From Microbacterium sp. CGR2 (lineage in GTDB: Bacteria > Actinomycetota > Actinomycetes > Actinomycetales > Microbacteriaceae): 64,000 bases of DNA. The stretch's first letter is position 1. Every line of letters starts with the position of its first letter. The stretch lies in NCBI RefSeq assembly GCF_003626735.1, contig NZ_RBHX01000001.1:682001-746000 (forward strand). Reading direction: 5' to 3'. This document shows, one piece after another, positions 14,405 to 45,325 of this stretch. Both the position numbers and the translations under genes were made by a program. The notes under the pieces are model-generated. The model ran no database searches. It was not told the origin of the DNA and saw only the letters and a list, made by a program, of their open reading frames with translations.

Positions 14405-14490
14405 GGTTCTGATTCTGCCCCACCCTGCCCCGCCGAGGGCCATCACCTTCTCCACGACGGACGAGTTCTTCGCGACTTAGACTGGCGGAT

Positions 14491-15192: not shown

Positions 15193-15197
15193 CACTC

Positions 15198-15217
15198 GCC
15201 CCTCCGGTTGGGGGGGC
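15198..15217. terminator. hairpin between convergent genes
   Basis: GCCCCTCC (15198-15205) and GGGGGGGC (15210-15217) can pair over eight positions with one T-G wobble around a GGTT loop, in the 26-base gap between two convergent stops. It is a plausible bidirectional terminator; there is no T tract. Confidence 0.45.
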
Positions 15218-15218
15218 A

Positions 15219-22950: not shown

Positions 22951-22985
22951 CCGCTGCCGCCTGAACCTACGCAACGACCCGACGG

Positions 22986-23396
22986 TCATTCCCAGCCGTG
23001 CGCGCTGAGCCACTCCTTCGCGACTCGCGCCGGCGCGCGCGTCAGCCACGCATCGGTGATGAGCTCGACCACGCGCTCCTGTGCCACCTTCTCGAGAGGC
23101 ACGAGCACTGCCGGATAGCCGTCGAAGTGCGGGATGGTGAAGACGATGTCGGGCTCGGCGGCGAGCAGGGCCTCTTTCTCCTCCACACTCGCCACCCGCA
23201 CGGCGAGCACGTCCCCTGCCGGCCACTCGCGCCCGAGCTCGTCGAGCTGCCGTCGATCCGTCGCGCTCGGACCGCGCAGCCAGGCGAACTGCCCGCTGCG
23301 CAGGCGCCAGGTCGCTTCCCCGGTGTGCCCGCCCGTGCTCTCGGTCACACCGGGGAGCGCCAGAGCGATCTCGCGCACGTCGTCGACGCTGACCAT
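22986..23396 (-). CDS. MmcQ/YjbR family DNA-binding-fold protein
   Basis: A 136-residue CyaY-like-fold protein of the MmcQ/YjbR family: SVDDVREIALALPGVTEST at the N terminus, then WRLRSGQFAWLRGP and DIVFTIPHFDGYPAVLVPLEKV, and AWLTRAPARVAKEWLSAHG at the end. Members are small cytoplasmic proteins of unknown function, sometimes proposed to bind DNA. The gene stands alone between a convergent membrane-protein gene and the large alpha-mannosidase. Confidence 0.82.
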   Translation of the reverse strand: MVSVDDVREIALALPGVTESTGGHTGEATWRLRSGQFAWLRGPSATDRRQLDELGREWPAGDVLAVRVASVEEKEALLAAEPDIVFTIPHFDGYPAVLVPLEKVAQERVVELITDAWLTRAPARVAKEWLSAHGWE

Positions 23397-23437
23397 CGGG
23401 CCATCGTCCCGCGAACGCCAGACGTCCGCAAGACGCG

Positions 23438-26431
23438 TCAGCGGGCGATGCGAACCGTCCTGACCTCGAACGGCCGCAGCCGCAGCTCGCCACCGCGACG
23501 AGGCTCGTCCAGCTCATCCTCGATGAGGCTCACCTCTCGCAGCTCGCGGTGTGGGAACCCGACCGTCAGGGCGCCGACCGTCCGCCTCCCGAGCGACTCG
23601 TAGACACGCACGATCACGTCGCCGGAGCCGTCATCGGCGAGCTTCACCGCGGACACGATGATCCCCTCGCCGTCGACGGACACCAGCGGCTCGACCTCGC
23701 GCGCGCCCCGGATGACGGTCGGCGTCGCATTCATCCGGATGCCTTCGGTCGTCGCAATCGCCGCATCCGCCCCGATCACGAAGCCGACCTCGATCTCGTG
23801 GTGCCCATGGTCGGTGTCCGGGTCGGGGAAGCGCGGTGCGCGCAGCAGCGACAGTCGCACCGTCGTGGTCACCGCCTCGCCCTCGACGTCACGCGTCGTG
23901 TCGTACCCGTAGATCGAGTCGTTCACCAGAGCGACACCGAAGTCCGCCTCGCGCACGAGCACGAAACGATGCATCGAGGTCTCGAACTTCGCCGCCTCCC
24001 AGCTCGTGTTGGTGTGCGTGACGCGCGCCTGGTAGCCGAACTGCGTCTCGGCTTCGGTGTGCGAGGCCTGGATGTCGAGCGGGAAGGCCAGCTTGAGCAG
24101 CTTCTCGGTCTCGTGCCAATCGATGTCGTTGCGCAACAGGACGGTGCGCCCGCCGGGCGTGAGCAGGATGGTCTGCTGAATGGTCGACTCCGAGAACACG
24201 CGGGTGACCACCACTGTCGCGACGCCGTCGACCACGGAAGCTTCGATCGACGACACCTCGGTGAGGTCTTCGACGCTGTTGCGGTAGTACTTGTCGATGT
24301 CCCATGCGTCCCACATGTTCGGGAAGTCCTGATGCAGCTGGAACAGGTTCGCGGCGCGACCTTCGGCGACGGCCTCACGCCCGCTCGCCCGATCGACAGC
24401 CGAGACGATCAGCCCCTCCGCCGAGATGAGGACCGACACGAGGTCGTTCTCGAGCCGCCATCCGCCCGCCTCTTCGGTGAGGGTCACCGGCGTCTCGGCG
24501 CGCTCCGGAACCCAGGAGGCACCCAGCGCACGTCCTCGGCCGACGGACGTGGGCTCGAAGAGCAGCTCCCGGTCGCCTTCGCCCGCGAGCGAGCGGCGCG
24601 CAGCCACGGCGATCTCCTCGGCATCCGACAGCACGTTCGTGAGAACCTCGACGGCCTCGCGATGCACCCAGGCGATGGACGTGCCGGGGAGGATGTCATG
24701 GAACTCATGCAGCAGCACGATCTGCCAGAGCCGATCGAACTCGCTCTGCGGGTAGGCGGCGCCGGTGCGCACGGTATCCGTCGCCGCCCACAGCTCGGCC
24801 TCGATGAGCGCATGCTCGGCCCAACGGTGCAGCGCCTTGGTCGCGTGCTGGCTGGTGAGCGTGCCGCGATGCAGCTCGAGGTAGAGCTCCCCGACCCAGA
24901 CAGCCGGGTGCGGCAGTTCGGCACGAGCGGCCTCGAAGAACGCGTCCGGATGCTCCCACACGACCTTCGCGCTGCCCTCGAGGTCCTGCAGTCGGCGAGC
25001 GCGACCGGTCATCTCGCGCGTGGTGCCACCGCCGCCGTCACCCCAGCCGACCGGGGCGATCGAGCGGGAGCTCAGCCGGTTCTCCTTGAACTGGCGCGAC
25101 GCCTTGGCGACCTCCATGCCACTCAGCTGCGAGTTGTAGGTGTCCATGGACGGGAAGTGCGTGAACACCTGCGAACCGTCGATGCCCTCCCAGAGGAAGC
25201 TGTGGTGCGGGAAGACGTTCTGCTGGTTCCAGGAGATCTTCTGCGTGAAGAACCACTCGAACCCCGCGCGGCGCATGAGCTGCGGGAGCGCGGGCGAGTA
25301 CCCGAAGCTGTCAGGCAGCCAGACGCCCTTCGAACGGATGCCGAACTCCCGCTCGAAGAACCGCTGCCCGTGCGAGAACTGACGCACCAGCGACTCCCCC
25401 GTCGGCATGACGGTGTCGGATTCGACCCACATGCCACCCAGCGGCAGGAACCGCCCGTCCGCGACGGCGGCCTTGACCCGCTCGAAGACCTCGGGGCGAT
25501 GCTCCTTCAGCCAGGCGTACTGCTGAGCACTGGACATTCCGTAGAGGAAATCGGGCTGCTCGTCGATCAGCGCGGTCATCGACGAGGAGGTGCGCGCCAC
25601 CTTGCGGATCGTCTCGCGCAGCGGCCACAGCCACGCCGAGTCGATGTGCGCGTGACCGATGGCCGAGATGCGGTGTGCGCTGGCCTCCGCGGGAGCCGCG
25701 AGGACATCTGCCAACTGCGCACGGGCGGCCCCGGCGGTCTCGGTGATCCGCTGCAGGTCGAGCGCGTCGAGCGCGTCGTCCATCGACTGCAGGATGCGCA
25801 TGCGGCGAGGAGAGGTGGCAGGCAGCTCGGCCTGGAGCCCGAACAGCACTTCGAGGTCGAGGGAGAGTTCGAAGACCTCCTCCTCGAACACCGCCAAGTC
25901 GATGCGACGCGTGCGGTACAGCGGCTCCGGGGAGGACGTCAGGATGTCGCCCTCCTGGGTGGGCAGGAAGGGGTGGTAGTCCAGCAGCACGGGGTTCGCC
26001 GCCGCCTCGAGATACAGCTCCACCGGCTCCTCGCCGTGCGCGCTGTCGGCGATCGGGACCCATTGGTTGCGCGGGTTGATGCTCTTCACCGGCGAGCCGT
26101 CTGGGCGGTAGGCGAGCGCCTCGCACTGGAAGCCGGGCATGTTGATGTCGAAGCCGAGGTCGATGACGGCTTCGACGGGGCGTCCTGCCCATTCCGCAGG
26201 GACGTGTCCGCTCAGGCGGAACCAGGTGGTCCCCCACGCCGGCCCCCACGGTTCGCCGACCCGGGCGGGCGAGTATTCGAGCGCGAGTCCCTCGGCGACC
26301 GGAATCGGTTCGCCGGGCAGCTGGTGCACCTCGACGGTCAGCGGAACGGAGTCCGAATGGATGGCCGGGCGGATCCGCTCATCGAGCACCCGCGTGACGC
26401 GGCCGACGGTGAGCGAGGTGTCATCATGCAT
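23438..26431 (-). CDS. alpha-mannosidase, glycoside hydrolase family 38
   Basis: A 997-residue GH38 enzyme without signal peptide, so cytoplasmic. The N-terminal beta-domain precedes the catalytic barrel; near residue 260 ISAIGHAHIDSAWLWPLRET carries zinc-binding His and Asp, and WLPDSFGYSPALPQLMRRAG carries the nucleophile Asp; LLHEFHDILPGTSI provides a further His. The C-terminal half is the family's beta-sandwich region. It should remove alpha-linked mannose from imported oligosaccharides. The minus-strand promoter -10 TTTAGT overlaps operator 26463-26476, and a LacI gene is divergent, so mannose-glycan induction is likely. RBS GGAGA precedes the ATG. Confidence 0.92.
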   Translation of the reverse strand: MHDDTSLTVGRVTRVLDERIRPAIHSDSVPLTVEVHQLPGEPIPVAEGLALEYSPARVGEPWGPAWGTTWFRLSGHVPAEWAGRPVEAVIDLGFDINMPGFQCEALAYRPDGSPVKSINPRNQWVPIADSAHGEEPVELYLEAAANPVLLDYHPFLPTQEGDILTSSPEPLYRTRRIDLAVFEEEVFELSLDLEVLFGLQAELPATSPRRMRILQSMDDALDALDLQRITETAGAARAQLADVLAAPAEASAHRISAIGHAHIDSAWLWPLRETIRKVARTSSSMTALIDEQPDFLYGMSSAQQYAWLKEHRPEVFERVKAAVADGRFLPLGGMWVESDTVMPTGESLVRQFSHGQRFFEREFGIRSKGVWLPDSFGYSPALPQLMRRAGFEWFFTQKISWNQQNVFPHHSFLWEGIDGSQVFTHFPSMDTYNSQLSGMEVAKASRQFKENRLSSRSIAPVGWGDGGGGTTREMTGRARRLQDLEGSAKVVWEHPDAFFEAARAELPHPAVWVGELYLELHRGTLTSQHATKALHRWAEHALIEAELWAATDTVRTGAAYPQSEFDRLWQIVLLHEFHDILPGTSIAWVHREAVEVLTNVLSDAEEIAVAARRSLAGEGDRELLFEPTSVGRGRALGASWVPERAETPVTLTEEAGGWRLENDLVSVLISAEGLIVSAVDRASGREAVAEGRAANLFQLHQDFPNMWDAWDIDKYYRNSVEDLTEVSSIEASVVDGVATVVVTRVFSESTIQQTILLTPGGRTVLLRNDIDWHETEKLLKLAFPLDIQASHTEAETQFGYQARVTHTNTSWEAAKFETSMHRFVLVREADFGVALVNDSIYGYDTTRDVEGEAVTTTVRLSLLRAPRFPDPDTDHGHHEIEVGFVIGADAAIATTEGIRMNATPTVIRGAREVEPLVSVDGEGIIVSAVKLADDGSGDVIVRVYESLGRRTVGALTVGFPHRELREVSLIEDELDEPRRGGELRLRPFEVRTVRIAR

Positions 26432-26462: not shown

Positions 26463-26476
26463 CTAAAACGGTCTAG
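26463..26476. promoter_or_regulatory. LacI-type operator 1, mannosidase promoter
   Basis: CTAAAACGGTCTAG, a quasi-palindrome centred on CG and matching CTAWARCGNTNNAG. On the minus strand its edge forms TTTAGT, a -10 box for the alpha-mannosidase gene whose ATG is at 26431. Flanking bases extend the symmetry (ACTA and TAGT). Confidence 0.75.
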
Positions 26477-26515
26477 TGAGCGATTCTAAGGCACATGCAC
26501 GCGCCTCGACCCAGA

Positions 26516-26529
26516 CTAAAACGATCAAG
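26516..26529. promoter_or_regulatory. LacI-type operator 2, lacI promoter
   Basis: CTAAAACGATCAAG, 53 bases from operator 1 centre to centre (about five helical turns) and sharing ten of its first eleven bases. It directly abuts TATGGT (26530-26535), the -10 box of the lacI gene six bases before its ATG. The pair could be bridged by a tetramer or occupied independently. Confidence 0.75.
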
Positions 26530-26541
26530 TATGGTGATGCT

Positions 26542-27573
26542 ATGACTCCGGCGAAGCGCGTCACGATCGCGGACATCGCGCGCATGGCGGGCGTCTCTCC
26601 CGGCGCGGTCTCCTTCGCTCTCAACGGTCGGCCCGGGGTCAGCGACGACACGCGGCAGCGGATCCTGACGATCGTCCAGGAGAACAACTGGCAGCCGAGT
26701 TCCGCGGCCCGCGCTCTCGTGGGAGCCCGCGCGAACACGGTCGGGCTGGCCCTCGCCCGCCCGGCGCGCTCACTGGGATCCGAGGCGTTCTTCACGGACC
26801 TCATCGCCGGCATCGAGTCACGCCTGTCGGAGAGCAAGGTGAGTCTCCAGCTGCGGCTCGTGGCCGATCTCACCGAGGAGATCGACGTGCATCGGCAGTG
26901 GCGGTCGTCCAACCAGGTCGACGGGATCATCCTCATCGACCCGCGCGATGACGACCCTCGCGGGGCGCACATCGACGCACTCGACGCCCGTGCTGTCATG
27001 ATCGGCTCGAAACCGGCACCGGCCGGAGCCGTGCCCAGCGTCTGGATCGACGACGGAGACGTCGCCGAGACCCTCTTCTCGTATCTGGCCGCACTCGGAC
27101 ACACGCGGATCGCGTATGTCGCCGGCCCTGAGGATCTCGAGCACACGCGCCTCCGTGCCGATGTGCTCACCGGCATGACCGCCGACGGCGTCGAGGGCGA
27201 GGTCATCACCACCGACTTCTCGCCGGCGCGTGCGTCCGCCGTGACACGCACGCTGCTCAGCGGGCGCCGTCGACCGACCGCCATCGTCTACGACAACGAC
27301 GTGATGGCCGTGGCCGGGCTCCGCGTCACGCAGGAGATGGGTCGCGTGGTACCCCGCGACGCCTCGCTCGCCTCCTTCGACGACTCGGTCATCGCGGGGC
27401 TCATCAACCCGTCGATCACGGCGATGACTCGCGACACGTTCCAGCTCGGCGAGCAGGCGGCCACTCTGCTCCTGCAGCAGATCGACGCCGGCACGACTCT
27501 TCCGAGCATGGGGGGACCGACCCCCACGCTCAGCGTCCGGGAGAGCACGGCTCCGCCGCTGTCGGGGGCCTGA
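26542..27573 (+). CDS. LacI family regulator, likely master repressor of the glycan regulon
   Basis: A 343-residue LacI/GalR repressor. RVTIADIARMAGVSPGAVSFALNGRPGVSDDTRQRI is the DNA-binding headpiece with the hinge at about residue 55; the periplasmic-binding-like effector domain follows (VGLALARPARSLGSEAFFTD, PTAIVYDNDVMAVAG). ATG 26542 is chosen because TATGGT lies six bases upstream; a longer frame from 26476 runs through both operators. It is divergent from the GH38 gene. Sites with the same pattern precede the GH5, ABC and GH18 genes downstream, so I infer control of them all. The effector is unknown; a mannose-containing oligosaccharide is a reasonable guess. Confidence 0.88.
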   Translation: MTPAKRVTIADIARMAGVSPGAVSFALNGRPGVSDDTRQRILTIVQENNWQPSSAARALVGARANTVGLALARPARSLGSEAFFTDLIAGIESRLSESKVSLQLRLVADLTEEIDVHRQWRSSNQVDGIILIDPRDDDPRGAHIDALDARAVMIGSKPAPAGAVPSVWIDDGDVAETLFSYLAALGHTRIAYVAGPEDLEHTRLRADVLTGMTADGVEGEVITTDFSPARASAVTRTLLSGRRRPTAIVYDNDVMAVAGLRVTQEMGRVVPRDASLASFDDSVIAGLINPSITAMTRDTFQLGEQAATLLLQQIDAGTTLPSMGGPTPTLSVRESTAPPLSGA

Positions 27574-27795
27574 GGGGCCGCGCGTCGCGGGCGGCGCACG
27601 CGAACGCCGCTGTCGGCGATAAGCGCTTTTCCTAAGCGCGGGACTTGAAGATTGCGAAAGGCCGATCTTCTCTCATTCAGGCGCGTTCGTATCCTCATCC
27701 CGGCCCACCCGGGGACTAGCACTGTGCGGTGCACCAGCTGTCCGGCCGAGGCCCGCAGGCTTTCGGCTATGTCAAGCTTTTATGGGCCCCACGCC
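27574..27795. other. convergent intergenic region with orphan AAGCGCTT palindrome
   Basis: This gap lies between the ends of the lacI and GH5 genes. No gene is apparent. GATAAGCGCTTTTC at 27618-27631 is symmetric at 12 of 14 positions and shares the AGCGCT core with the operators at 29254 and 33818. TAAGCGC recurs at 27633. No clear terminator hairpin is seen. Confidence 0.4.
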
Positions 27796-29106
27796 TCAGG
27801 GCTGCACGACCGTGTTGACCGAGCCGTACCGCTCGACCCCCGACGCGGCGGCCTCAGGGCGCACGAGACGACGGATGCCGCGAGCGGCGAGAGCATCGGC
27901 ATCGTCCGCGGTCCGCGACGTGACGAACGCGGGGTCGAGACCCTCCGTGCACGCATCCACCCAGGCCTGGAACACAGCACCGCCGGGGCTCAGCGCGGTG
28001 CGGCTGGTCGGCAGATCGTGCTCATCCACGTCGATCACGATCGCGGTCTCTCGCGCCGGCGCGGCGACTCGCTCACGAAGCTCCGGGATGATCTCGGCAA
28101 GACGCCGTCCGATCGGTTTGGCCTCGCCCTCGCTGTCGATCAGACCGAGCGAGTACTCCAAGTCGGGGAAGTCGCCGAGGTCACGGCTGACGTCGTGCGA
28201 GCACCACCAGGTCACACCCCAGAGGTTCTGCGTACGCACCGTGGAGCGCACCGTCGCCTCGAGGAACCCGGGCATCTCCGCCGGCTCGAGACAGTTCGAC
28301 GGCGCACCGACCTCCTGCAGCCAGATCGGGCGGTCGGCATCCGTCGCGAAGGCACGTGACACCTCGATCAGGTACTCGGCGTGACGATCGGAGGCCATGG
28401 ATCGGCCGCCGTACCGCTGGGCTGTCCCGTTGAAGATCCAGGAGTGGATCGTCGTCATGGCCCCCAGGCGGGAGGCGTGCGCGGGTGTGAAGCCGTGCTG
28501 GTCCATGTACCAGACCGCGTCGTACTCGCTGTGGACGTGCGGGCGGCCCGGGGCTGCCACCGCGGCGGCGTCGAGCAGCGTCGTGATCCAGCGCTCCGCT
28601 TCGTCGGCCGTGACCGGCCAGGGCGACGGGTGCGTCTCGGCGGAGAACTGGTTCGTCTCGTTGCCGAGGGTCAGCCCGAGGAAGTTGGGGGCGTCGCGCA
28701 GCGTCTCGCCGAGTCGCCCGACGAGCGCGACCTGCCCCTCGAGGGCCTTCGGATCGGTGAACATGTTCCGGTCGTGCCAGGTGTGCAGCCAGGCGGGCAC
28801 GAAGTCGAAGCTGGACAGATGGCCTTGGATGACGTCGACGCTCGCGTCCATCCCGAACTCGCCCGCGATGTCGACCGCGGACCGGACGTCATCGAGCGCT
28901 TTGCCCCTGATCAGGGTGCGATTGGGCTGGAGGATCGTCCACAGCGGAAAGATCCGGACGTGGTCGAGACCGAGTTCTGCCAGTGCGGCGAAGTCCCGGC
29001 GCACGTCGTCAGGCGTGAAGTCGAGCCAGGAGTGCATCCAGTCCTTCGACGGCGTGTAGTTCGCCCCGAATCTCACCGGAGCTTCCAGTGCGCCGCGCTG
29101 CGTCAT
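27796..29106 (-). CDS. glycoside hydrolase family 5, subfamily 18-like beta-mannosidase
   Basis: A 436-residue TIM-barrel hydrolase with no signal peptide. [18 protein letters not shown] near residue 13 and [17 protein letters not shown] are hallmarks I recall from GH5_18 enzymes of bifidobacteria and streptomycetes. Glu150 in LGNETNQF is the likely acid/base and Glu265 in [10 protein letters not shown] the likely nucleophile. Characterised GH5_18 enzymes split Man-beta-1,4-GlcNAc, the disaccharide core left after N-glycan trimming. The promoter has TATAGT overlapping operator 29155-29168. Family GH5 is firm, while the subfamily call is from motif memory. Confidence 0.82.
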
Positions 29107-29154
29107 CCGTCCGACCTTTCCGAGGGGACCCCGTGCCGGGGTTGCGTCGGATCA

Positions 29155-29168
29155 CTATAACGCTTGAG
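29155..29168. promoter_or_regulatory. LacI-type operator 3, GH5 promoter
   Basis: CTATAACGCTTGAG matches CTAWARCGNTNNAG. On the minus strand its left edge plus one flanking base reads TATAGT (29159-29154), a good -10 box for the GH5 gene starting at 29106. The overlap of operator and -10 fits repression. Confidence 0.72.
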
Positions 29169-29253
29169 TTCCGTAGCTGCATCCGCACCGTCCTGGAGCG
29201 TGTCGATCGGCGACGGCCACCTTGACACGGGCACGCCAGGGTGCTTTCATCTG

Positions 29254-29267
29254 CTAAAGCGCTGTAG
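29254..29267. promoter_or_regulatory. LacI-type operator 4, ABC importer promoter
   Basis: CTAAAGCGCTGTAG is symmetric at 12 of 14 positions and matches CTAWARCGNTNNAG. Its right edge gives TGTAGT (29263-29268), a possible -10 for the solute-binding gene; alternatively TTGACA at 29222-29227 with TTTCAT 17 bases later is the promoter and the operator lies just downstream. It is 99 bases from operator 3. Confidence 0.72.
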
Positions 29268-29318
29268 TCCATGACGGACTCCCCTGCGCCGATTCGCCCG
29301 CCTCGAGGAAGAAGCACG

Positions 29319-30620
29319 ATGAAAGTTCCCACACGCATTGTCGCTCTGGCAGCATTCACGATCGGCGCCCTCGCGCTGACCAGTTGCACGGGAGGTGGGG
29401 AGACCACCGGCGCCGGCGGCCCCATCGACACCTCCGGGGAGTTGAGCGGAACCATTCAGTTCCAGACGTGGTCGCTGAAGAACGAGAAGTTCACGCCCTA
29501 CTTCGAATCCGTCATCGACGCCTTCGAAGAGGAGCACCCCGAGGTCACCGTGGAGTGGCTCGACCAGCCCGGAGACGGCTACCAGGAGAAGATCCTCAGC
29601 CAGGCGAACGCCAACACCCTCCCCGACGTGCTGAACCTGCCGCCGGACATCGCCTACCCGCTGGTGGCGGCCGGCAAGCTCGTCAACCTGGAGGAAGCGG
29701 ACCCCGACCTCAAGGCGCAGTACAACGCGGGCGCATGGGATTCCTACAGTCAGTACCCGGGCGTCGAAGGCACCTACGGCCTGCCGTGGTACCTCTCCAG
29801 CGACGCGTCGTGGTGGAACCTCGAGCAGCTCGCGCCCTTCGGTGTGACCGAGGAGAGCCTCCCGACGACCGTCGACGAGCTTCTCACCCTCGCGCAGGAC
29901 GTCGCACAGGAGTCCGACGGCAAGGTGCAGCTGCTGTCCTCCATCCCGGCGCTCGACACCTTCACGTCCGCAGGCATGGAGGTCATCGACGAGGAGGGTG
30001 AGTTCGTCTTCAACACCGACGAGGCCGCCGCGATCATCGAGAAGTTCGCCGATGCCTACGCCGCAGGGGCCATGCCCGCCGAAGCTCTCACGGGCGACTA
30101 CGGCGGAAACGCCGAGGCGTACATCCAGGAGAAGGTCGCATTCACCACCGGAGGCACCGGCTTCACGACCGACCTCGCGAAGGATGCTCCGGCACTGCTC
30201 GAGAACACCGTCGCGACGCAGCGACTGGGCATCCCGCCGCTCTACGTCCAGGGACTGAACGTCTCGGCGGAGTCGGACAACAAGGAGGCAGCCCTCGCGT
30301 TCGCGGAGTTCGTGACCAACGAGGAGAACCAGGTCGAGTTCTCCACCCTCGCCGTGGGCACCGCCCCGGGCACCGCCGGTGGCGGTGACGCGGTGGTCGA
30401 CAACATCGCCTCCTCGGTCACCGATGAGAAGCAGCTCGCCGCCATCGACACCGTGTTCACCGCGATGGAGGACGCCAAGGCCACCCCGTTCCAGTGGACC
30501 TCCGACATGGCGACCTACATGACGCAGCAGATCGCCCTCGCGATCAACGGCGAGGCGGACGCCAAGGGACAGCTCGACAAGATCGTCGAGTACGCCAACG
30601 CGAACCGCGTGGACCAGTAA
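29319..30620 (+). CDS. ABC sugar importer, solute-binding lipoprotein
   Basis: A 433-residue extracellular binding protein. The signal peptide MKVPTRIVALAAFTIGALAL ends in lipobox LTSC with lipidated Cys23. The mature part is a type-1 sugar-binding protein (FQTWSLKNEKFTPYFES, VEWLDQPGDGYQEKILSQ, PWYLSSDASWWN). Start ATG 29319 has GAGGAAG upstream; an earlier in-frame ATG at 29271 would hide the signal peptide. The ligand is probably an oligosaccharide released by the nearby endoglycosidase, inferred from shared operators. Two permease genes follow; no ATPase gene is present, so a shared MsiK-like ATPase elsewhere is likely. Confidence 0.9.
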   Translation: MKVPTRIVALAAFTIGALALTSCTGGGETTGAGGPIDTSGELSGTIQFQTWSLKNEKFTPYFESVIDAFEEEHPEVTVEWLDQPGDGYQEKILSQANANTLPDVLNLPPDIAYPLVAAGKLVNLEEADPDLKAQYNAGAWDSYSQYPGVEGTYGLPWYLSSDASWWNLEQLAPFGVTEESLPTTVDELLTLAQDVAQESDGKVQLLSSIPALDTFTSAGMEVIDEEGEFVFNTDEAAAIIEKFADAYAAGAMPAEALTGDYGGNAEAYIQEKVAFTTGGTGFTTDLAKDAPALLENTVATQRLGIPPLYVQGLNVSAESDNKEAALAFAEFVTNEENQVEFSTLAVGTAPGTAGGGDAVVDNIASSVTDEKQLAAIDTVFTAMEDAKATPFQWTSDMATYMTQQIALAINGEADAKGQLDKIVEYANANRVDQ

Positions 30621-30661
30621 GCCGTGCACGCGAACACCAGCACCCGGAGCGGGAGACGACG

Positions 30662-31549
30662 ATGAGATCGCATAAGTGGTTCACGCCCTGGCTTCTACTC
30701 GCTCCTGCGGTCATCTGGGTGCTGGTGTTCGCGCTCTGGCCGTTCCTGAACACGGTCATCCTGAGCTTCACCGACGCCCGCCCCCTGCGCACGCCTGCGT
30801 TCGTCGGCGGCTCGAACTACGAGCGCATGTTCGGCGACGAGATGTTCTGGAACGCGCTGACCACCTGCATCATCTACGTGGTCGTGTGCGTGCCGCTGCT
30901 CACGGTCCTTCCGCTGCTGCTGGCGCTGCTCGTGCAGAAGAACCTTCCAGGGATCTCGTTCTTCCGCACCACGTTCTACTTCCCGGTCATCGCGTCGGTC
31001 GTGGTCGTCGCTCTCATCTGGACCTGGCTGTTCGACAGCCGCGGCATCGTCAATCAGACCCTGGAGTTCCTGGGCATCGTCGACAAGCCGATGGCGTTCC
31101 TCGTGGATCGCTGGCTACTGCTGGGCTGCGCCATCCTGCTCACAGTGTGGAAGGGGCTCGGCTACTACATGGTCGTGTACCTCGCCGCCCTCGGCAACGT
31201 CGGCAAGGAGCTGCACGAGGCGGCGATGCTCGATGGCGCCGGCGCCTTCCGACGGTTCCTCTCGGTGACGATCCCGTCGGTCCGCGGCGCGATGCTCCTC
31301 ATCGCCATCCTCATCGCCGTCTCCGCGATGCGGGTGTTCGCCGAGCTCGATGTGCTCTCCAAGAGCACGGGAGGCCCCGGCGGCTACGACATGTCGCTGG
31401 TGATGCTGATCCGGCAGGTGGGCTCCGGGCTCAACGGGAACATCGGCTACGCCTCGGCCATCAGCGTGGCACTCTTCCTGCTCACCCTGATCCCCCTGGC
31501 TGCGATCGCGTTCATGAACCGCGAGAAGAAGGCGAAGGTTTCCGCATGA
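30662..31549 (+). CDS. ABC sugar importer permease, MalF type
   Basis: A 295-residue permease with six helices, starting MRSHKWFTPWLLLAPAVIWVLVF. The EAA loop contacting the ATPase is ELHEAAMLDGAGAFRRFLSVTIP near residue 185. ATG 30662 follows CGGGAG. It lies 41 bases after the binding-protein gene and overlaps the second permease by four bases. It forms the membrane channel together with that partner. Confidence 0.9.
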   Translation: MRSHKWFTPWLLLAPAVIWVLVFALWPFLNTVILSFTDARPLRTPAFVGGSNYERMFGDEMFWNALTTCIIYVVVCVPLLTVLPLLLALLVQKNLPGISFFRTTFYFPVIASVVVVALIWTWLFDSRGIVNQTLEFLGIVDKPMAFLVDRWLLLGCAILLTVWKGLGYYMVVYLAALGNVGKELHEAAMLDGAGAFRRFLSVTIPSVRGAMLLIAILIAVSAMRVFAELDVLSKSTGGPGGYDMSLVMLIRQVGSGLNGNIGYASAISVALFLLTLIPLAAIAFMNREKKAKVSA

Positions 31550-32475
31550 CCACGCTGACCAAGCCCCCAGCCGACAACGCGCAACGCTCGGAAGATTCCA
31601 AGGCCACCCGTGAGCGCGTGTTCCGTCGCCGCGGTTCCGGGGACTTCAGCAAGCCGACGCTCGGAGGCCTGATCGGCCGCTACGCCCTTCTGGTTTTCGT
31701 GCTGGTGCTGGTCATCGGCCCGTTCATCTGGCAGCTGTCGACCTCGTTCAAGGGGCCGCAGGAGAACATCTACTCTTTCCCGCCGAATCTGATCCCCACG
31801 GACCCGACTCTCGAGAACTACGCGACGGTCGCCGACATCGTGCCGGTCTACCTGTACGCGTGGCACTCCCTGCTGGTCTCGGTCGGAACCGTCATCAGCA
31901 ACGTCGTACTGGCCACGCTCGCCGGCTATGCGCTGGGGTGCATGAGGTTCCGCGGCAAGTGGATCGTGATGGCCATCCTGCTGTCCACGCTGCTGTTCCC
32001 CGGAGAGGTCACGGTCACGAGCAACTTCCTGACGATCCGCGCACTCGGCCTCGCCGACAACCTCTGGGGCGTGTTCCTCCCCGGGGCCATCAGCGCGATG
32101 AACGTGCTGCTCGTCGCCACGGCGTGCCGCATGATCCCCAAGGACGTGCTGGATGCCGCCACCGTCGACGGCGCGACCACCTGGCAGCGCATCCGCCACA
32201 TCGTCTGGCCGAACATCCGCGGCATGGTCTCCGTCGTCGCGATCTTCGCCTTCATCGGCGCCTGGGACGACTACCTCTGGCCGCTGATCGTCCTCTCGGA
32301 CCCCGCGAAGTACACCCTGACCGTCGGCATGGCCTACCTGAACAGCAGCTTCTCCGTCGACCCTCGGCTGATCGCTGCCGGCACGATGATCGCACTCGTC
32401 CCCATCGTCATCATGTTCTCGTTCACGCAGCGGTTCTTCTTCAAGGGCGTCCAGGAGGGCGCCGTGAAGGGATGA
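31546..32475 (+). CDS. ABC sugar importer permease, MalG type
   Basis: A 309-residue permease. The ATG overlaps the previous stop (ATGA). A polar N-terminal tail of about 45 residues precedes GRYALLVFVLVLVIGPFIWQL, the first of six helices. The EAA loop is VLDAATVDGATTWQRIRHIVWP. GVQEGAVKG ends the protein, as in many MalG-type permeases. A terminator follows. Confidence 0.9.
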   Translation: MTTLTKPPADNAQRSEDSKATRERVFRRRGSGDFSKPTLGGLIGRYALLVFVLVLVIGPFIWQLSTSFKGPQENIYSFPPNLIPTDPTLENYATVADIVPVYLYAWHSLLVSVGTVISNVVLATLAGYALGCMRFRGKWIVMAILLSTLLFPGEVTVTSNFLTIRALGLADNLWGVFLPGAISAMNVLLVATACRMIPKDVLDAATVDGATTWQRIRHIVWPNIRGMVSVVAIFAFIGAWDDYLWPLIVLSDPAKYTLTVGMAYLNSSFSVDPRLIAAGTMIALVPIVIMFSFTQRFFFKGVQEGAVKG

Positions 32476-32503
32476 CGCGAAACCGAGAGGGACAGCGAAA
32501 GAA

Positions 32504-32531
32504 GGGGGCGGATGCCGCAGCATCCGCCCCC
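32504..32531. terminator. bidirectional terminator
   Basis: GGGGGCGGATGC (32504-32515) and GCATCCGCCCCC (32520-32531) pair perfectly over 12 bases around CGCA, followed by TTCT. It sits in the 73-base gap between the convergent ABC and endoglycosidase genes and can serve both. Confidence 0.8.
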
Positions 32532-32548
32532 TTCTCCCTGCTCGGTGG

Positions 32549-33754
32549 CTACTTGCGCGAGAGTGTGAACACCACCTCGGTGACGTTGCCGGCGACATCG
32601 GCGACCTCGAGGGTGTTCTCGCCCAGGACGGCACCGAAAGCGCCCGGCTTCACGAAGTTCAGATCGCTCCACTCGTCGTCGGTCAGGTCCTTGGGCACTC
32701 CGTTGAGAGTCAGCCCGTCGATCTTGCCGGCGTCATGCAGAGCGAAGCTCACGCGGCGGTACTCGCCGTCTGCGCCCTTCGTGAACCGCGCCCCTTCCTT
32801 GACGGTCACCGTGGGCGGAGTGGTGTCGGCCGACGCCCGGTAGACGGTTGCCCGGCCGTTGAGCTCCTGCGTGATGCCGGACAGATACGCCGAGTGGTCG
32901 CCGCCCGTCAGGTTGTAGGCGACGTAGATCCCGTAACCGTCATCCACGGTCCGCGCCGCGAAGTTCGCGGCGGTCGCCGCATCGGTGTTGACGAGGTCGA
33001 TCGCCGCCGCTCCCAGGCGAGCAGTGTCCTCCAGGCCGGGCACAGTCGGGGCGTCGTACGTCGGGTAGTACGGGTTCCACGCGTAGTCGATCGTGCCGGA
33101 CGCGTCGAACCGCGCGAAGTCGGTCGTCGTGTACGACGGCCCGATCGCATACAGGCTGATGATCTTGTCCGGTCCCAAGCGGTCCCGGAGAGCGGTCGCC
33201 AACCATCCGAACGACCTGTCGTTGGGCTGTGGCGTACCGTTCGCGCCGTAGTTCGTCCACTCGTCGTCGAAGTCGATGCCGTCGAGACCGTACGTCGTGA
33301 CCGCGTCGGCCAGTTGCGCGGCGAACGCGTCGGCGGCCTCGAACGAGGTGAAGTTCGCGAAGCCCGCCCCCTGGTGGTTGCCGAGCACCGAGAGCAGAAC
33401 TTTCGTGCCCTGCGCCTGAACGGGACGAATCTGGTTCTCCGCGTCCTGCAGCGTCTCGGTGACCCGCTCGTTGAAGTGGAGGTAGGCGTTCTGGCCGTCG
33501 TAATTGATGTTGGCGGCGAAGATCATCGCCATGTCGATGGCTGCTTCGCCCGATCCCTCGAGCGTGTAGTCGGCCACGTTGGCTAAATCGTTCGAGTTGA
33601 CCTCGACGTAGACGGCGAGCTTCGGATCAGTCGGCTCTTCGTCGGCCACCGCCCCCGCCGACCCGGCGAGAATGCTTGCGGCGACCGTGGCGAGGGCAGC
33701 CGCTGATGCGAGCCCTCGTCGATACGGGCGGGGATGGGCGTTCCGTTGACTCAT
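32549..33754 (-). CDS. secreted endo-beta-N-acetylglucosaminidase, GH18 (Endo H-like)
   Basis: A 401-residue secreted protein. Residues 1-37 are a signal peptide (basic MSQRNAHPRPYRRG, hydrophobic core, AGA-V cleavage region). The catalytic domain has TYGLDGIDFDDEWTNYG, nearly the Endo H motif, with catalytic Asp163 and Glu165 by alignment to the DxDxE signature, then NGTPQPNDRSFGWL. Endo H cuts the chitobiose core of high-mannose N-glycans. A C-terminal domain of about 90 residues (DTTPPTVTVKEG to the end) looks Ig-like and is absent from the classic enzyme. RBS AAAGGAG; promoter TATAGT overlaps operator 33818-33831. Confidence 0.87.
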   Translation of the reverse strand: MSQRNAHPRPYRRGLASAAALATVAASILAGSAGAVADEEPTDPKLAVYVEVNSNDLANVADYTLEGSGEAAIDMAMIFAANINYDGQNAYLHFNERVTETLQDAENQIRPVQAQGTKVLLSVLGNHQGAGFANFTSFEAADAFAAQLADAVTTYGLDGIDFDDEWTNYGANGTPQPNDRSFGWLATALRDRLGPDKIISLYAIGPSYTTTDFARFDASGTIDYAWNPYYPTYDAPTVPGLEDTARLGAAAIDLVNTDAATAANFAARTVDDGYGIYVAYNLTGGDHSAYLSGITQELNGRATVYRASADTTPPTVTVKEGARFTKGADGEYRRVSFALHDAGKIDGLTLNGVPKDLTDDEWSDLNFVKPGAFGAVLGENTLEVADVAGNVTEVVFTLSRK

Positions 33755-33787
33755 GACAGATCGTCTCCTTTGGCGCTTCGATCACAA

Positions 33788-33811
33788 CCAGGCCGCAACA
33801 CCGCGGCCTGG
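33788..33811 (-). promoter_or_regulatory. hairpin at the 5' end of the endoglycosidase mRNA
   Basis: CCAGGCCGC (33788-33796) and GCGGCCTGG (33803-33811) pair perfectly across AACACC. The predicted transcription start, about seven bases after TATAGT (33822-33817), falls at the edge of this stem, so the mRNA would begin with the hairpin. It could stabilise the mRNA or act as a terminator for the upstream isomerase gene. Confidence 0.5.
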
Positions 33812-33817
33812 CTGCGA

Positions 33818-33831
33818 CTATAGCGCTTAAG
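33818..33831. promoter_or_regulatory. LacI-type operator 5, endoglycosidase promoter
   Basis: CTATAGCGCTTAAG matches CTAWARCGNTNNAG. On the minus strand TATAGT (33822-33817) is the likely -10 box. The site also contains the stop codon (TAA, 33829-33827) of the isomerase-like gene upstream. Confidence 0.72.
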
Positions 33832-35467
33832 CTCCGATCTCGACATCCCCTACGAGGTTCACCCTGATGCCCATGCCCGCGAACATCGCCGCCTTCGCGA
33901 TCAGCGCCTTGTCTGCAGTCTCGGCGTCGGGCGCGTAGACCAGTTGCGCGTGATTCGCCTTGTGACGGGCCATGAACTGGTCGCGCGAGATGCCGTGCAG
34001 CACGACATGCGCGATCGGCCACTCGGGGTTCGTGGCCTCCTTGCGACGCTGGGTCTCGTCGTCCGGCAGTTCCACGACGGTCGCCCGGAAGATGTCAGCC
34101 TGCAGGATGCCCTCGGCGATGAACACCCGAGACAGCACGATCTCACCCGGCTTCGACACCCCGTTGATGGTGGCACCGCCCGCCGGGAAGAACACGTGCC
34201 CCTGACGCCACCCCTCGGCGTTCTGCCATCCACCCAAGTGCGAGGCGGGGACCGATCCAGAGATCTCGTAGACCCAGACGAACTGTCCGTCGAAGTCTTC
34301 ACCCCAGCGGACGTCGTGCAGGGTGTTGTCGGGCACGAGCCCCATCGCGCGCCAGACCCGGTCGGTGACCAGCGCGTCGACGGCGACGCCCTCGTCGGCC
34401 TCGTTGAAGTGCGGGAAGGCCCGGCCTTCGTGCAGCACGCGCGATCCATCACGAGAGGTCACCGGCGGACGCTCCGTGGAGTTCAGGATGCCCTCGGCAA
34501 GGTCGGACGCCGGCACCAGATCCTTCAGCCCCTGCTGATATTGGATGCCCACGGCGTCGAGTCCGAAGTCATCGGCGATGCGGAGTGCGGCGATGTACAT
34601 CTTCAGCTGCCACTGCACCTGCTCCCGGGTGAGTTCCGTCGCGGCATCCTCGCCGTACCGGAAGGTCATGCCCTTCTCGATGAGCCAGTCGTAGGCGGCA
34701 TCCGCTTCTTCTTCGCCGACCTCGAGCATCTCGGCATAGAGCGCCGACTGCGAGAGGCGCTCTTTGTAGATGCCGGTCTCGTTGAGCAGCTCGTCGTCGA
34801 AGATCGCGTTGTACATGCCCATGCAGCCCTCGTCGAAGACGCCGATGATGGCCTTCTCCGCGAGCAGTTCCGCAGCGAGCGCCTCCCCCAGCTGTTTCTC
34901 GGGACTGTCGGGCAGTTCGGGGAGCGCGCGCACGTGGGAGGCGTCGTGCGTGATCGTGCCCTTCTCGGTCCATTCCTCGATGCCTGCCCGGAACCATTCG
35001 TCCCGGAAGTCGACCGACCAGATCGTCGCGTACGGCTTGTCCATCTTGGTGAGACCGGCGTTCAGGCCCAGGAGTCCGACGAGGCCCGGCCAATCGCCCG
35101 CGAAGTTCGCGACGGTGAGAATGGGGCCCTGGTGCGTGCGCAGGCCTGCGAGAACGTGATGCGAGTATTGCCAGACCGCTTCGGCGACGATGAGCGGAGC
35201 ATCCGTCGGGATGTTCTTGAAGACGTCCAGGCCCATGCGCTGACTCGAGATGAATCCGTGGCCGGTGGCAGGGTCGACGTCGTTGGCACGGATGACATTC
35301 CAGCCGAGATCGTTGAAGACGCCGATGACACCCGCTTCCAGCTCGACCTGGACGGGCCAGCCGCCCGTGTTGGCGGCCTCGCGCAGGTCGCCCGACGCGA
35401 TGAGATAGGCGGTCTTCGGGGCAGAAGCCGGACGGGATGCCGGAGCCGGCACGGTGTAGGTGGTCAT
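33827..35467 (-). CDS. L-fucose/L-arabinose isomerase-fold protein
   Basis: A 546-residue cytoplasmic protein resembling proteins annotated as fucose isomerases: TAYLIASGDLREAANTGGWPVQ, DEGCMGMYNAIFDDELLNE, and GLDAVGIQYQQGLKDLVPASDLAEG. These enzymes use a metal to convert aldoses to ketoses. Substrate is unproven. Start ATG 35467 is chosen since TACAGT (35480-35475, minus) lies seven bases upstream; the earlier ATG at 35497 is inside the palindromic operator. A LacI gene lies directly upstream on the same strand. It might handle fucose from core-fucosylated glycans, but this is inference. Confidence 0.72.
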   Translation of the reverse strand: MTTYTVPAPASRPASAPKTAYLIASGDLREAANTGGWPVQVELEAGVIGVFNDLGWNVIRANDVDPATGHGFISSQRMGLDVFKNIPTDAPLIVAEAVWQYSHHVLAGLRTHQGPILTVANFAGDWPGLVGLLGLNAGLTKMDKPYATIWSVDFRDEWFRAGIEEWTEKGTITHDASHVRALPELPDSPEKQLGEALAAELLAEKAIIGVFDEGCMGMYNAIFDDELLNETGIYKERLSQSALYAEMLEVGEEEADAAYDWLIEKGMTFRYGEDAATELTREQVQWQLKMYIAALRIADDFGLDAVGIQYQQGLKDLVPASDLAEGILNSTERPPVTSRDGSRVLHEGRAFPHFNEADEGVAVDALVTDRVWRAMGLVPDNTLHDVRWGEDFDGQFVWVYEISGSVPASHLGGWQNAEGWRQGHVFFPAGGATINGVSKPGEIVLSRVFIAEGILQADIFRATVVELPDDETQRRKEATNPEWPIAHVVLHGISRDQFMARHKANHAQLVYAPDAETADKALIAKAAMFAGMGIRVNLVGDVEIGA

Positions 35468-35483
35468 GAGCGACACTGTACGC

Positions 35484-35495
35484 GAAATCGATTTC
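35484..35495. promoter_or_regulatory. palindromic LacI-type operator of isomerase gene
   Basis: GAAATCGATTTC is a perfect 12-base palindrome with central CG, four bases upstream of the -10 TACAGT. Its sequence differs from the CTAWARCG sites, so a different LacI protein, most simply the adjacent one at 35539-36522, should bind it. Confidence 0.7.
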
Positions 35496-35538
35496 ATGGC
35501 ACAAGGAACTGACCACTCGACCTCCGCACAGCTCTGAT

Positions 35539-36522
35539 TCAGCGCCGCGTACTGGCCGGCCGCACCTCGTCGCGCAACACGATGGTTCGCGCCGGCTGGG
35601 TGTCACCCTTGATGCGTTCGAGCAGCATCTGAGCCGCGGTCACTCCCATGTGACGAGCCGGAAGTCGCACCACTGTCACCGCATTCGGGGACAGCGTCGT
35701 GAACGGCAATGAGCCGATCACAGCCACCCCCACCTGCGGCGGCGTGAGGCCATGCTCGCTGAGCACCTGGATCGCACCGACACCGATGAGATTGTTGCCG
35801 GCGACGACCGCGTCGGGTGGCTGGGGCAGCGCGAGGAGCTCCTCCATCGCGGCGCGACCCCCTTCGACGCGGAAGGTGGCGAAGCGCGCAAGCGCATCCA
35901 GCTCCTCGGAGGGAAGCGCACCGTCGAGCGTCGAACGCCATCCCGCCGCGCGCTCGGCGGCCGTGTCGATGTGCTCCGGACCACCGATGTAGGCGATGCG
36001 ACGATAGCCGGCATCGAGCAGTTCCTTCGTCGCCGACGCTCCGGCGACGCGGTTGGCCATCACGACACCGTCGATGTCATAGTTCGTGCGACGATCGACG
36101 GCGACCACCGGCCGCCCGGTCGCGAGGATGCCGTCAAGGCTGGACGTCTCGGATGCCGTGGCGATGATCACGCCGGACATGTTCTCCGCGACCGCGATCT
36201 GCAGGTACGTCGCCTCCTTCTCCGTCTGCGAATCGGAGTTGCAGAGCACGACCGAGTAGCCGGCCGCCGACGCCGCATCCTCGACGCCGCGGGCCATCTC
36301 GGTGAAGTACGGGTTCTCGATGTCGGGAATGACGAGAGCGATGACCTCCGAGCTCTGCCGCCGAAGCGTGCGCGCGGTGCGGTTGGGAGTGAAGTTCAGT
36401 CGCGCGGCTGCCGCTCGGACGGCGACGACCTTCTCTTTCGACACGGGCGTGCCGTTGAAGACGCGAGACACCGTTGCGGGCGAGACCCCCGCGAGCGCTG
36501 CGACGTCGTAGATCGTGGCCAT
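35539..36522 (-). CDS. LacI family regulator
   Basis: A 327-residue repressor: MATIYDVAALAGVSPATVSRVFNGTPVSKEKVVAVR is the headpiece, LNFTPNRTARTLRRQ the hinge, then the effector domain (VIALVIPDIENPYFTEMARGVE, DAVVAGNNLIGVGAIQVL). The stop is about 70 bases upstream of the isomerase gene start, and the palindrome GAAATCGATTTC lies between. It therefore likely controls the isomerase. RBS GAGGATGC precedes the ATG. Confidence 0.88.
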   Translation of the reverse strand: MATIYDVAALAGVSPATVSRVFNGTPVSKEKVVAVRAAAARLNFTPNRTARTLRRQSSEVIALVIPDIENPYFTEMARGVEDAASAAGYSVVLCNSDSQTEKEATYLQIAVAENMSGVIIATASETSSLDGILATGRPVVAVDRRTNYDIDGVVMANRVAGASATKELLDAGYRRIAYIGGPEHIDTAAERAAGWRSTLDGALPSEELDALARFATFRVEGGRAAMEELLALPQPPDAVVAGNNLIGVGAIQVLSEHGLTPPQVGVAVIGSLPFTTLSPNAVTVVRLPARHMGVTAAQMLLERIKGDTQPARTIVLRDEVRPASTRR

Positions 36523-36596
36523 GCATCCTCACTGCCTGTCCGACCGCGCCGAACGTGAGGCAACAGTATCGCGCGGGCCCGTACACACCATTGCGC

Positions 36597-36622
36597 CTCA
36601 CCGTACGGCGGCGTATGGTGAG
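36597..36622. promoter_or_regulatory. inverted repeat with -10 box, probable TetR site
   Basis: CTCACCGTAC (36597-36606) and GTATGGTGAG (36613-36622) are complementary at nine of ten positions around GGCGGC. TATGGT at 36614-36619 can serve as -10 for the gene at 36652. The half-site CCGTAC is shared with the palindrome before the tetR gene. Confidence 0.55.
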
Positions 36623-36651
36623 CACGTACGCGACCGTATGGAGGCAGAGCG

Positions 36652-37221
36652 ATGATCCGCAACCTCGCAGTGAACGCGACCCGCGCCCACGTCCGGCGGT
36701 GGGTCGGACGAGCCGAGGTGCCGCCTGCTCTGGCGTCCCTGGCCACCCTTCCGGGCTACCACTACGTCGACGCCTTCACCCTCGACTGGGAGGGCGCCGA
36801 CGAGTGGACTGCCGGAGAGTGGGCACGCGCCATGTTCGAGGACGATCGCCCCATCCTCGCGCGCGCTGCGACTCGGGGGCTGCTCGGCGTGATGCTGAAT
36901 CGGCCCGACCCGAGAGGACTGATCAATGGATTCACGATCGCATTGCCCGACCGTGCAACGCTGCGTGGAGATGTGCGGTCGAACCTCAGCGCCGATCAGA
37001 TCGTCGTCAGTGTGACGCCCGCACAGGTCTCCCTGGTCACGGCCGTCCGCCACAACACCCCGATCGCCAAGGCGATCTGGACGGTCGTCTCGAACCTGCA
37101 CCGGTCGTTCGCGCCACGAGTACTGCGGTACGCGGCCACAGAGCTTCGCGGCCTCAGCGGCTCCCGCGTCAGCGCGGGTCAGGGAAGAGGTCGTCGAGGA
37201 GGCCGATCGTCGATCGCATGA
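36652..37221 (+). CDS. unknown protein (189 aa), probable TetR target
   Basis: ATG with GGAGG seven bases upstream. The protein begins MIRNLAVNATRAHVRRWVGRAEV, contains GYHYVDAFTLDWEGADEWTAGEWARAMFE and LINGFTIALPDRATLRGDVRSNLSAD, and resembles a DUF2867-like polyketide-cyclase-type fold only vaguely. Its last 53 bases overlap the convergent tetR gene, so the Gly/Arg-rich tail may be spurious. The promoter carries an inverted repeat with the same half-site as the tetR operator. Function unknown. Confidence 0.62.
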   Translation: MIRNLAVNATRAHVRRWVGRAEVPPALASLATLPGYHYVDAFTLDWEGADEWTAGEWARAMFEDDRPILARAATRGLLGVMLNRPDPRGLINGFTIALPDRATLRGDVRSNLSADQIVVSVTPAQVSLVTAVRHNTPIAKAIWTVVSNLHRSFAPRVLRYAATELRGLSGSRVSAGQGRGRRGGRSSIA

Positions 37222-37753
37222 GGCGTCGGTGCTCATCCGGCGTCGAAGGCATCAGCGACGGAAGCGACGCCTGCAGCCGGATCAGCCCCAGCCACATCGC
37301 GTACATCTGAGTGGCACGGTCTCTCGCTGTTCGCTCAGGAAGACCCGTGGCGGCGAACGCCTCGGCCATGAACGCGACCCGTCGGGCACTGACCTTCTCG
37401 AGGACTTCTGCGACGACAGGGTCATCCGCTCGATGAAGGAGGTCGACCTCCGACCGGTCCTGCGATACGTTCGCGAACGCGCGTTCGAACAGGGCGCGGA
37501 GCTGCGCGCGAGGATCGTCGATCCGGGCGACGCCATCGATGATCTCTTCCGTCTCGATGAGCCAGAGGTCCAGGACCGCCGCGAGCAGTTCGCCCCGGTT
37601 CCGGAAATGCCAGTAGAAGCTTCCTTTGGTCGCACCGAGCCGCACGGCGATGCGTTCGATCACGACAGCATCCACCCCGGACTCGCCGAACATCTCGAAA
37701 CCGGTGCGCGCCCAGTCATCGCGTCCGAGCTTCGCCTTCCCCTCCTGCGCCAT
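37169..37753 (-). CDS. TetR family transcriptional regulator
   Basis: A 194-residue repressor starting MAQEGKAKLGRDDWARTGFEMFGESGVDAVVIERIA, with RLGATKGSFYWHFRNRGELLAAVL as recognition helix and following helix. ATG 37753 is chosen because TACCGT lies six bases upstream on the minus strand and the perfect palindrome GTACGGTACCGTAC covers it; residues encoded further upstream would run through the operator. Autoregulation is likely, as is control of the convergent gene at 36652. Ligand unknown. Confidence 0.87.
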   Translation of the reverse strand: MAQEGKAKLGRDDWARTGFEMFGESGVDAVVIERIAVRLGATKGSFYWHFRNRGELLAAVLDLWLIETEEIIDGVARIDDPRAQLRALFERAFANVSQDRSEVDLLHRADDPVVAEVLEKVSARRVAFMAEAFAATGLPERTARDRATQMYAMWLGLIRLQASLPSLMPSTPDEHRRLMRSTIGLLDDLFPDPR

Positions 37754-37757
37754 GTCA

Positions 37758-37771
37758 GTACGGTACCGTAC
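37758..37771. promoter_or_regulatory. tetR operator, perfect 14-base palindrome
   Basis: GTACGGTACCGTAC reads the same on both strands and contains the tetR -10 box TACCGT on the minus strand. It lies four bases upstream of the tetR start codon. Confidence 0.75.
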
Positions 37772-37851
37772 GGCCACGTCGTCCGGTTCGGTCCTCACGC
37801 CGCTCGGAATCGCTTGTGGCAACGATCCCACATCTGCGCCAGACTGAACGC

Positions 37852-39258: not shown

Positions 39259-39279
39259 CAGCTCCGGCCGTCGACGCCA

Positions 39280-41757: not shown

Positions 41758-41846
41758 CGTGTCTCTCGCCTGTTCTTGTCTGTGTGCGGTCCGTGCGCGG
41801 AAAGGGCGGGCCGACCGAAGTCGACCCGCCCCGGGGTGCGGGAGGA

Positions 41847-43211: not shown

Positions 43212-43284
43212 GTCGTTCCCTTTCGATTGGGGCGGGGCGATGCCGCCGCCGGGGTCTTGCTGGTTGGTGAGATGCGTCATGACT

Positions 43285-45233: not shown

Positions 45234-45301
45234 CGCCCACCCTCTCTCACAGAGGGGCGCAAACGGTTCGTGTCTGCCATGTCGCTTCTCCTGTTGGCCT
45301 G

Positions 45302-45315: not shown

Positions 45316-45325
45316 CATGGCTGTG

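Follow-up and report, generated by a model that had tools for sequence, protein, structure and literature searches.

The DNA analysed here, a 64,000-nucleotide stretch of the Microbacterium sp. CGR2 genome (the window), carries genes for two mannosidases, an endoglycosidase and an ABC importer in separate transcription units around a lacI gene. This arrangement raises the question of whether these genes form a single regulon and, if so, which protein controls it.

Genes and predicted operators of the locus

An earlier note on this DNA had listed five 14-base sites before lacI, GH38, GH5, the importer and GH18. All five were found again in the sequence and fit the pattern CTAWARCGNTNNAG, and the gene coordinates bear out the targets assigned to them (Table 1). 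The pattern matches 5 times in the window, where 100 dinucleotide shuffles gave 0.01 matches on average, and these five are its only exact matches genome-wide (3,968,731 bases, 4 contigs); a control pattern read backwards gave 0 forward and 2 reverse matches in the whole genome. This exact-match count is partly circular, since the five sites served to define the pattern; the evidence that is independent of pattern fitting is the conservation of the sites and their co-occurrence with LacI. With one mismatch allowed, the genome yields 28 rows (21 forward, 7 reverse), made up of the five sites, the reverse readings of three of them, scattered others and a site in the window at 33583, itself one mismatch from CTAWARCGNTNNAG and absent from the earlier list. 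These genome-wide counts come from pattern searches rather than from a matrix scan. A palindrome search allowing up to 3 mismatches was dropped as uninformative (77 places vs 404 for the backwards control). In the cluster at 35400-46200, no operator was recognised among 20 of at least 60 direct-repeat families.

Table 1. Genes and predicted operator sites of the locus, numbered by position in the window.
Feature	Position	Strand	Remarks
GH38 alpha-mannosidase	23438..26431	-	structure matches
Operator for GH38	26463..26476	-	gene-side edge and next base form TTTAGT (26467-26462)
Operator for lacI	26516..26529	+	abuts -10-like TATGGT (26530-26535)
LacI-family regulator, 343 aa	26542..27573	+	domain and structure matches
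GH5_18 beta-mannosidase	27796..29106	-	structure matches
Operator for GH5_18	29155..29168	-	edge and next base form TATAGT (29159-29154)
Operator for ABC importer	29254..29267	+	edge and next base form TGTAGT (29263-29268)
ABC importer, whole span	29319..32475	+	SBP and two permeases
ABC importer substrate-binding lipoprotein (SBP)	29319..30620	+	start picked by eye at 29319
ABC permease 1 (perm1)	30662..31549	+	
ABC permease 2 (perm2)	31546..32475	+	
GH18 endo-beta-N-acetylglucosaminidase, EndoH type	32549..33754	-	NCBIfam and structure match
Intragenic operator-like site in GH18	33583..33596	-	third base of codon 53 to first base of codon 58
Operator for GH18	33818..33831	-	edge and next base form TATAGT (33822-33817)

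The structures nearest to GH38 are the alpha-mannosidases 7ufr, 7ufu, 7ufs and 7uft. A Pfam search with the GH5 protein gave no match, and structure matches placed it nearer to GH5_18 than to other GH5 enzymes, with 834 bits for 9y4v, 432-490 bits for five sequences named GH5_18 and only 56 bits for the endo-beta-mannanase 7bob. The matched GH38 and GH5_18 structures presumably come from Bifidobacterium longum. GH18 exceeds the NCBIfam EndoH cut-off (363.9 bits vs 300) and matches the EndoH structure 1edt at 297.6 bits. These enzyme families point to a high-mannose N-glycan as the predicted substrate, and they suggest an order of use in which a secreted EndoH acts before import, followed by GH38 and then GH5_18.

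An N-terminal LacI helix-turn-helix (PF00356, residues 8-53) and a periplasmic-binding-protein-like sensor domain (PF13377, residues 180-336) both score above cut-off in the regulator encoded at 26542, which also matches structure 4o5a at 211.5 bits and so belongs to the LacI family. The tetramerisation tail of E. coli LacI sits at its C-terminus. The 26542 protein appears to be without such a tail, because it ends 7 residues past the sensor-domain match and, aligned with E. coli LacI, matches no further than residue 313 of the latter; the C-terminal tetramerisation helix of a looping repressor like E. coli LacI was thus not found in it. LacI homologues number at least 14 in the genome (14 matches were scored), and one of their genes, a second lacI (lacI2), neighbours the locus at 35539.

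Conservation of the sites and co-occurrence with LacI

Conservation was assessed at the loci of the best 80 of 254 LacI relatives (L-numbered), which include a near clade of 22 loci plus L061 with LacI identities of 84-90%. A symmetric matrix built from the five sites was applied within 160 bases upstream of each gene, and rows were excluded when the gene match started after residue 20 or when fewer than 60 bases of upstream sequence were present. A threshold of 9 bits proved too lax, as mononucleotide shuffles passed it in 1.5-4.4% of cases (gene sets with n>=10), and 15 bits is therefore the threshold quoted. Among these best 80 of 254 relatives, sites of at least 15 bits lie upstream of GH38 in 44/57, lacI in 53/80, GH5 in 41/54, SBP in 30/32 and GH18 in 11/12 cases, counts that overlap because GH38 and lacI, like GH5 and SBP, often have common intergenic regions, and in which close relatives are redundant rather than independent. 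At the same threshold no sites were found upstream of the control genes perm1 (0/52), perm2 (0/36), fucI (0/10) and lacI2 (0/10), and mononucleotide shuffles of the target regions reached 15 bits in 5/4,700. A GH38b gene, represented by a single row (L047, 28% identity), also has a site.

In three near-clade alignments (22, 22 and 12 sequences, window included), 86, 89 and 93% of the site columns are invariant, against 22, 29 and 17% of the columns outside the sites. This conservation covers both half-sites and the centre, beyond the half that resembles a -10 box. The sites stay with their target genes where gene order or strand has changed (L029, L048, L063), as well as in L132, where about 5.8 kb lies between lacI and GH5. 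No site was seen for many of the LacI homologues at 45-50% identity.

The earlier note had further claimed that the edge of the site supplies a -10 box at four promoters and abuts one at lacI. The four hexamers and the adjoining TATGGT are indeed present, and this part of the claim holds; the importer -10 is ambiguous, because a conserved TTGACA-N17-TTTCAT just upstream of its operator would place the operator at the start point. The best -35 matches mostly agree in 2-4 of 6 bases. Among the relatives, the next base on the gene side is T in 41/44 sites at GH38, 39/41 at GH5, 30/30 at SBP, 11/11 at GH18 and 48/53 at lacI, whereas the symmetric base on the far side is A in only 33/44, 20/41, 7/30, 6/11 and 32/53, respectively. 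The gene-side half reads TATAGT in 39/41 sites at GH5 and 11/11 at GH18. Since the gene-side T and TATAGT are kept, more so than the far-side A, one half of the operator probably doubles as the -10 box. At lacI, the ATG follows TATGGT by six bases, and TA and GT of this hexamer are invariant in 22 near-clade sequences; given this distance, the lacI mRNA may be leaderless.

The link between motif and regulator was examined in 149 genomes of the genus (G-numbered), 34 of which have a LacI orthologue (>=383 bits). The palindrome, within one mismatch, occurs in 33/34 LacI-positive genomes and in 17/115 others (Fisher p 2e-19, odds 190, with kinship among genomes ignored). A control with the reversed pattern likewise favours LacI-positive genomes (27/34 vs 59/115, p 0.005, odds 3.7), so differences between genomes explain a small part of this link. 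Among LacI-negative genomes, lacI2 had no effect on the presence of the palindrome (6/29 vs 11/86). The one LacI-positive genome without the palindrome is G087. Of the 17 LacI-negative genomes with it, one (G029) encodes a truncated orthologue whose gene lies at the end of a contig. In six others (G050, G056, G073, G085, G099 and G141) the palindrome precedes a different LacI homologue, which means that the 26542 LacI is not the only family member associated with the motif; similar operators are probably used by related LacI proteins.

A site of at least 11 bits precedes the GH5_18 orthologue in 29/34 LacI-positive genomes and is missing in 5/34 (G063, G075, G110, G114, G128). Three genomes that keep GH5_18 at 72-77% identity and have no LacI (G032, G035, G070) have no GH5_18 site (0/3) and 0 palindromes genome-wide, and four further GH5_18 loci, more remote at 50-58% identity, likewise have no upstream site.

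Operators were also found away from lacI. GH85 endoglycosidases are encoded in 7/149 genomes, and in 6/7 a site of at least 21 bits lies upstream of the gene, always on a different contig from lacI in these draft assemblies. Five of the six operator-bearing genomes have the LacI orthologue and the sixth, G029, has the truncated one; in the seventh GH85 genome, G095, no LacI orthologue reaches the cut-off and no site lies near GH85. The site in L121 was first assigned to an SRP54 gene, an assignment that was rejected as a minus-strand GH85 begins on its other side. GH85 and EndoH-type GH18 are different families that do the same job, so a GH85 gene with this operator would represent a replacement or second enzyme that joined the same operator. 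The operator is likewise found in G060 before a GH5_18 gene whose contig is not the one with lacI. The EndoH genes over the cut-off (n=20) have a site of at least 15 bits in 13 cases, a site of 11.8 bits in one and none in 6. Four of these 6 correspond to L037, L042, L048 and L055. At these loci perm2 is followed by a long ORF and then by EndoH, which is transcribed in the same direction as the importer genes and may for this reason be controlled from the importer operator; L007 has a GH92 mannosidase as the ORF in this position.

The proposal that a common regulator, most simply the 26542 LacI, acts on these sites is supported by the co-occurrence counts, by the sites before GH85 and the relocated GH5_18, and by the LacI-less genomes that are free of the motif. 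As to how the protein might recognise its operator, LacI residue 20 is Lys in 12/80 loci (best 80 of 254), and ACCGGT occurs upstream of lacI in 7/12 of these (L062, L065, L066, L068, L070, L071, L079); the Pro-20 loci L035 and L060, which also have an ACCGGT-core site, are counter-cases. Co-variation between recognition helix and operator core is no more than a suggestion.

A conserved site within the GH18 gene

The additional site, CTAAATCGTTCGAG, covers codons 53-58 of GH18. Codon 57 is TTA; the 617 Leu codons counted over 15 window genes include no other TTA. Together with GAT at codon 56, this TTA is invariant in 13/13 EndoH genes that have a strong upstream operator; among 166 degenerate columns with an invariant amino acid, 37 are codon-invariant, and codons 56 and 57 are the only ones of these that end in A or T. 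The intragenic site scores 17.3-18.3 bits in all 13 genes and lies 232-236 bases from the upstream operator. GAT-TTA was found in 0/7 of the other EndoH genes, which have different codons there (best match 1.6 bits), and six of these 7 encode a near-identical peptide.

The intragenic copy probably blocks the elongating polymerase, acting as a roadblock, a reading favoured over looping because the 26542 LacI is without a tetramerisation tail. Most near relatives have conserved the operator spacings (52-54, 100-101 and 232-238 bp, compared with 53, 99 and 235 bp here), and helical phase is preserved across two indels of roughly 32 bp; looping was nevertheless rejected, given one 97-bp exception, the small number of independent events and the missing tail. 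It is rather unlikely that the site is not an operator at all and that TTA is kept for translational control via a rare leucine tRNA, of the kind exerted by bldA of Streptomyces through TTA codons. The extreme rarity of the codon and its position early in the gene of a secreted enzyme would fit such control, but it would leave unexplained why the adjoining GAT is equally invariant, why the matrix score is high in every one of the 13 genes and why the site is absent from the 7 EndoH genes without a strong upstream operator.

According to the main text of PMC4052901, fewer than 1% of LacI-family sites lie in coding regions, examples being LacI in lacZ and PurR in purB. The GH18 site resembles both E. 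coli examples in protein family, in operator type and in lying within the regulated coding sequence; E. coli LacI differs from the 26542 LacI in having the tetramerisation tail. At purB, PurR is a dimer that acts as a roadblock. By analogy, PurR/purB rather than E. coli LacI would be the nearer model for the putative roadblock in GH18.

Proposed regulation and related systems

Taken together, these comparisons make it very probable that the 26542 LacI acts as a local repressor of high-mannose N-glycan use and of its own gene, via a palindrome at five promoters. What the computations show directly is the presence and conservation of the sites, the link between sites and LacI orthologue, and the families of the enzymes; from this we infer binding by a LacI dimer, repression rather than activation, an inducer and a roadblock. 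The dimer would bind a palindrome of 14-16 bp (approximately ACTAWARCGYTWTAGT, with a central CG) at the promoters of GH38, lacI, GH5_18, the ABC importer and the EndoH-type GH18. In the GH38, GH5 and GH18 promoters, and perhaps in that of the importer, the -10 box would itself consist of the palindrome's gene-side half, so that bound repressor would cover the RNA polymerase site, and at lacI the palindrome would sit just upstream of the -10. The sixth copy, in GH18, would stop polymerase that is already elongating, and the inducer that frees the repressor would be an imported mannosyl oligosaccharide.

The large number of LacI homologues in the genome, and the palindromes before other LacI homologues in six genomes, could mean that another LacI-family protein, such as that encoded at 35539, binds the sites and that the 26542 LacI is a bystander. 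We regard this as improbable, as the motif tracks the 26542 orthologue and not lacI2, fucI and lacI2 are without upstream sites, and two of the sites flank lacI itself. The sign of control is not readable from sequence, and the 26542 LacI might bind the sites and mainly activate, or have a dual role; this is more improbable still, since the sites overlap -10 boxes, where a bound protein blocks RNA polymerase, and LacI-family members are mostly repressors. That the five sites reflect chance or mere resemblance among promoters is scarcely credible: the pattern was fitted to them and part of each coincides with a -10-like hexamer, but the conservation of both half-sites and the centre reaches beyond the -10 half, and the control promoters are without sites.

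Repression by the 26542 LacI remains our preferred reading, and we lean, with a confidence only slightly above even, towards a wider picture in which half-site and -10 box have merged, the intragenic roadblock operator has been selected on rare synonymous codons and GH85 has been recruited elsewhere, such that the regulon, not the gene family, is what is conserved. The model gives high-mannose N-glycan use in Microbacterium and its relatives a predicted regulator, operator motif and regulon, and the operator allows unlinked genes, e.g. GH85, to be recognised as pathway members. In addition, the conserved rare codon makes a putative intragenic repressor site visible, and so offers a clean case.

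The mechanism would be ordinary for the LacI family. The main text of Ravcheev et al. 2014 (PMC4052901) describes local LacI-family regulons with even palindromes that have a central CG and lie mostly 30-140 bp upstream of start codons, with autoregulation common and sugar genes as targets. The sites described here are likewise even palindromes with a central CG, found upstream of both sugar-related targets and lacI, as in those regulons. That main text names a mannoside group ManR, and the words glycan and Microbacteri are absent from it. Pathway and motif look newly described within the literature searched: no description of the regulon or motif was found in the texts covered, including parts of PMC4052901, PMC6160142 and PMC4746261. 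Neither of the two exact 14-mers was found in the literature text searched, in which a 12-mer occurs in one paper and a 10-mer in 13.

A Cutibacterium acnes locus, as described in the covered parts of PMC6160142, likewise combines GH38 and GH5_18 with ABC importer genes and a regulator gene; there GH38 and GH5_18 form one operon, whereas the present locus has them in separate units, together with a GH18 of EndoH type. LacI is mentioned 0 times in that paper, and no operator was found in the parts covered. LacI relatives at 46-48% identity belong to Streptomyces and to a record named Streptosporangium. In five such loci (L069, L074, L077, L082, L083), SBP, permease and GH5_18 genes are found upstream of lacI and on the other strand, with GH38 in four of them. 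Either CTAAAGCGCTTTAG (L077) or CTAATGCGCTTTAG (L069, L074, L082) stands before lacI; these relatives have one operator region before lacI, where the Microbacterium locus has five promoter sites.

Operator spacing and copies in relatives

Among loci of LacI relatives, the spacing between paired predicted operators shifts by about 32 bases, apparently with helical phase kept, from 53 to 21 and from 100 to 68-69, in a small number of events (L007, L019, L022, L025 and L061); a 97-base spacing in L007 is an exception. Immediately upstream of lacI in Arthrobacter sp. AQ5-06 (L034), two identical operator copies, CTAAAGCGATATAG, lie 16 bases apart.

Paralogous and neighbouring clusters

The genome of the window holds a paralogous cluster (G000:C2:158000-170000), where a GH5_18 gene at 55% identity adjoins a LacI gene at 35% identity; the LacI gene is preceded by a variant palindrome, GTAAAGCGGTATAC. 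Within the window, a second glycan cluster is separate from the main one (table below); the predicted 14-base operator palindrome of the main cluster was absent upstream of both its fucI and its lacI2, in 10 of 10 relatives for each gene.

Features of the window outside the main cluster genes
Feature	Position	Remark
494-aa ORF	22033-23517	overlaps end of GH38
Second glycan cluster	33827-46200	
fucI (fucose-isomerase-like)		within second cluster
lacI2 (second lacI)	35539-36522	second cluster
Second GH38	39280-41757	second cluster
ABC SBP	41847-43280	second cluster

Additional genes at the main cluster

The 494-aa ORF had no match in Pfam, NCBIfam or PDB, and several relatives carry partly similar ORFs close to GH38. 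In L007, the second permease gene is followed by a GH92 mannosidase gene (12641-15856); in other relatives a long ORF occupies the matching place. Neither is present at 32475-32549 of the window, and the sole GH92 found in its genome is at G000:C1:1012423.
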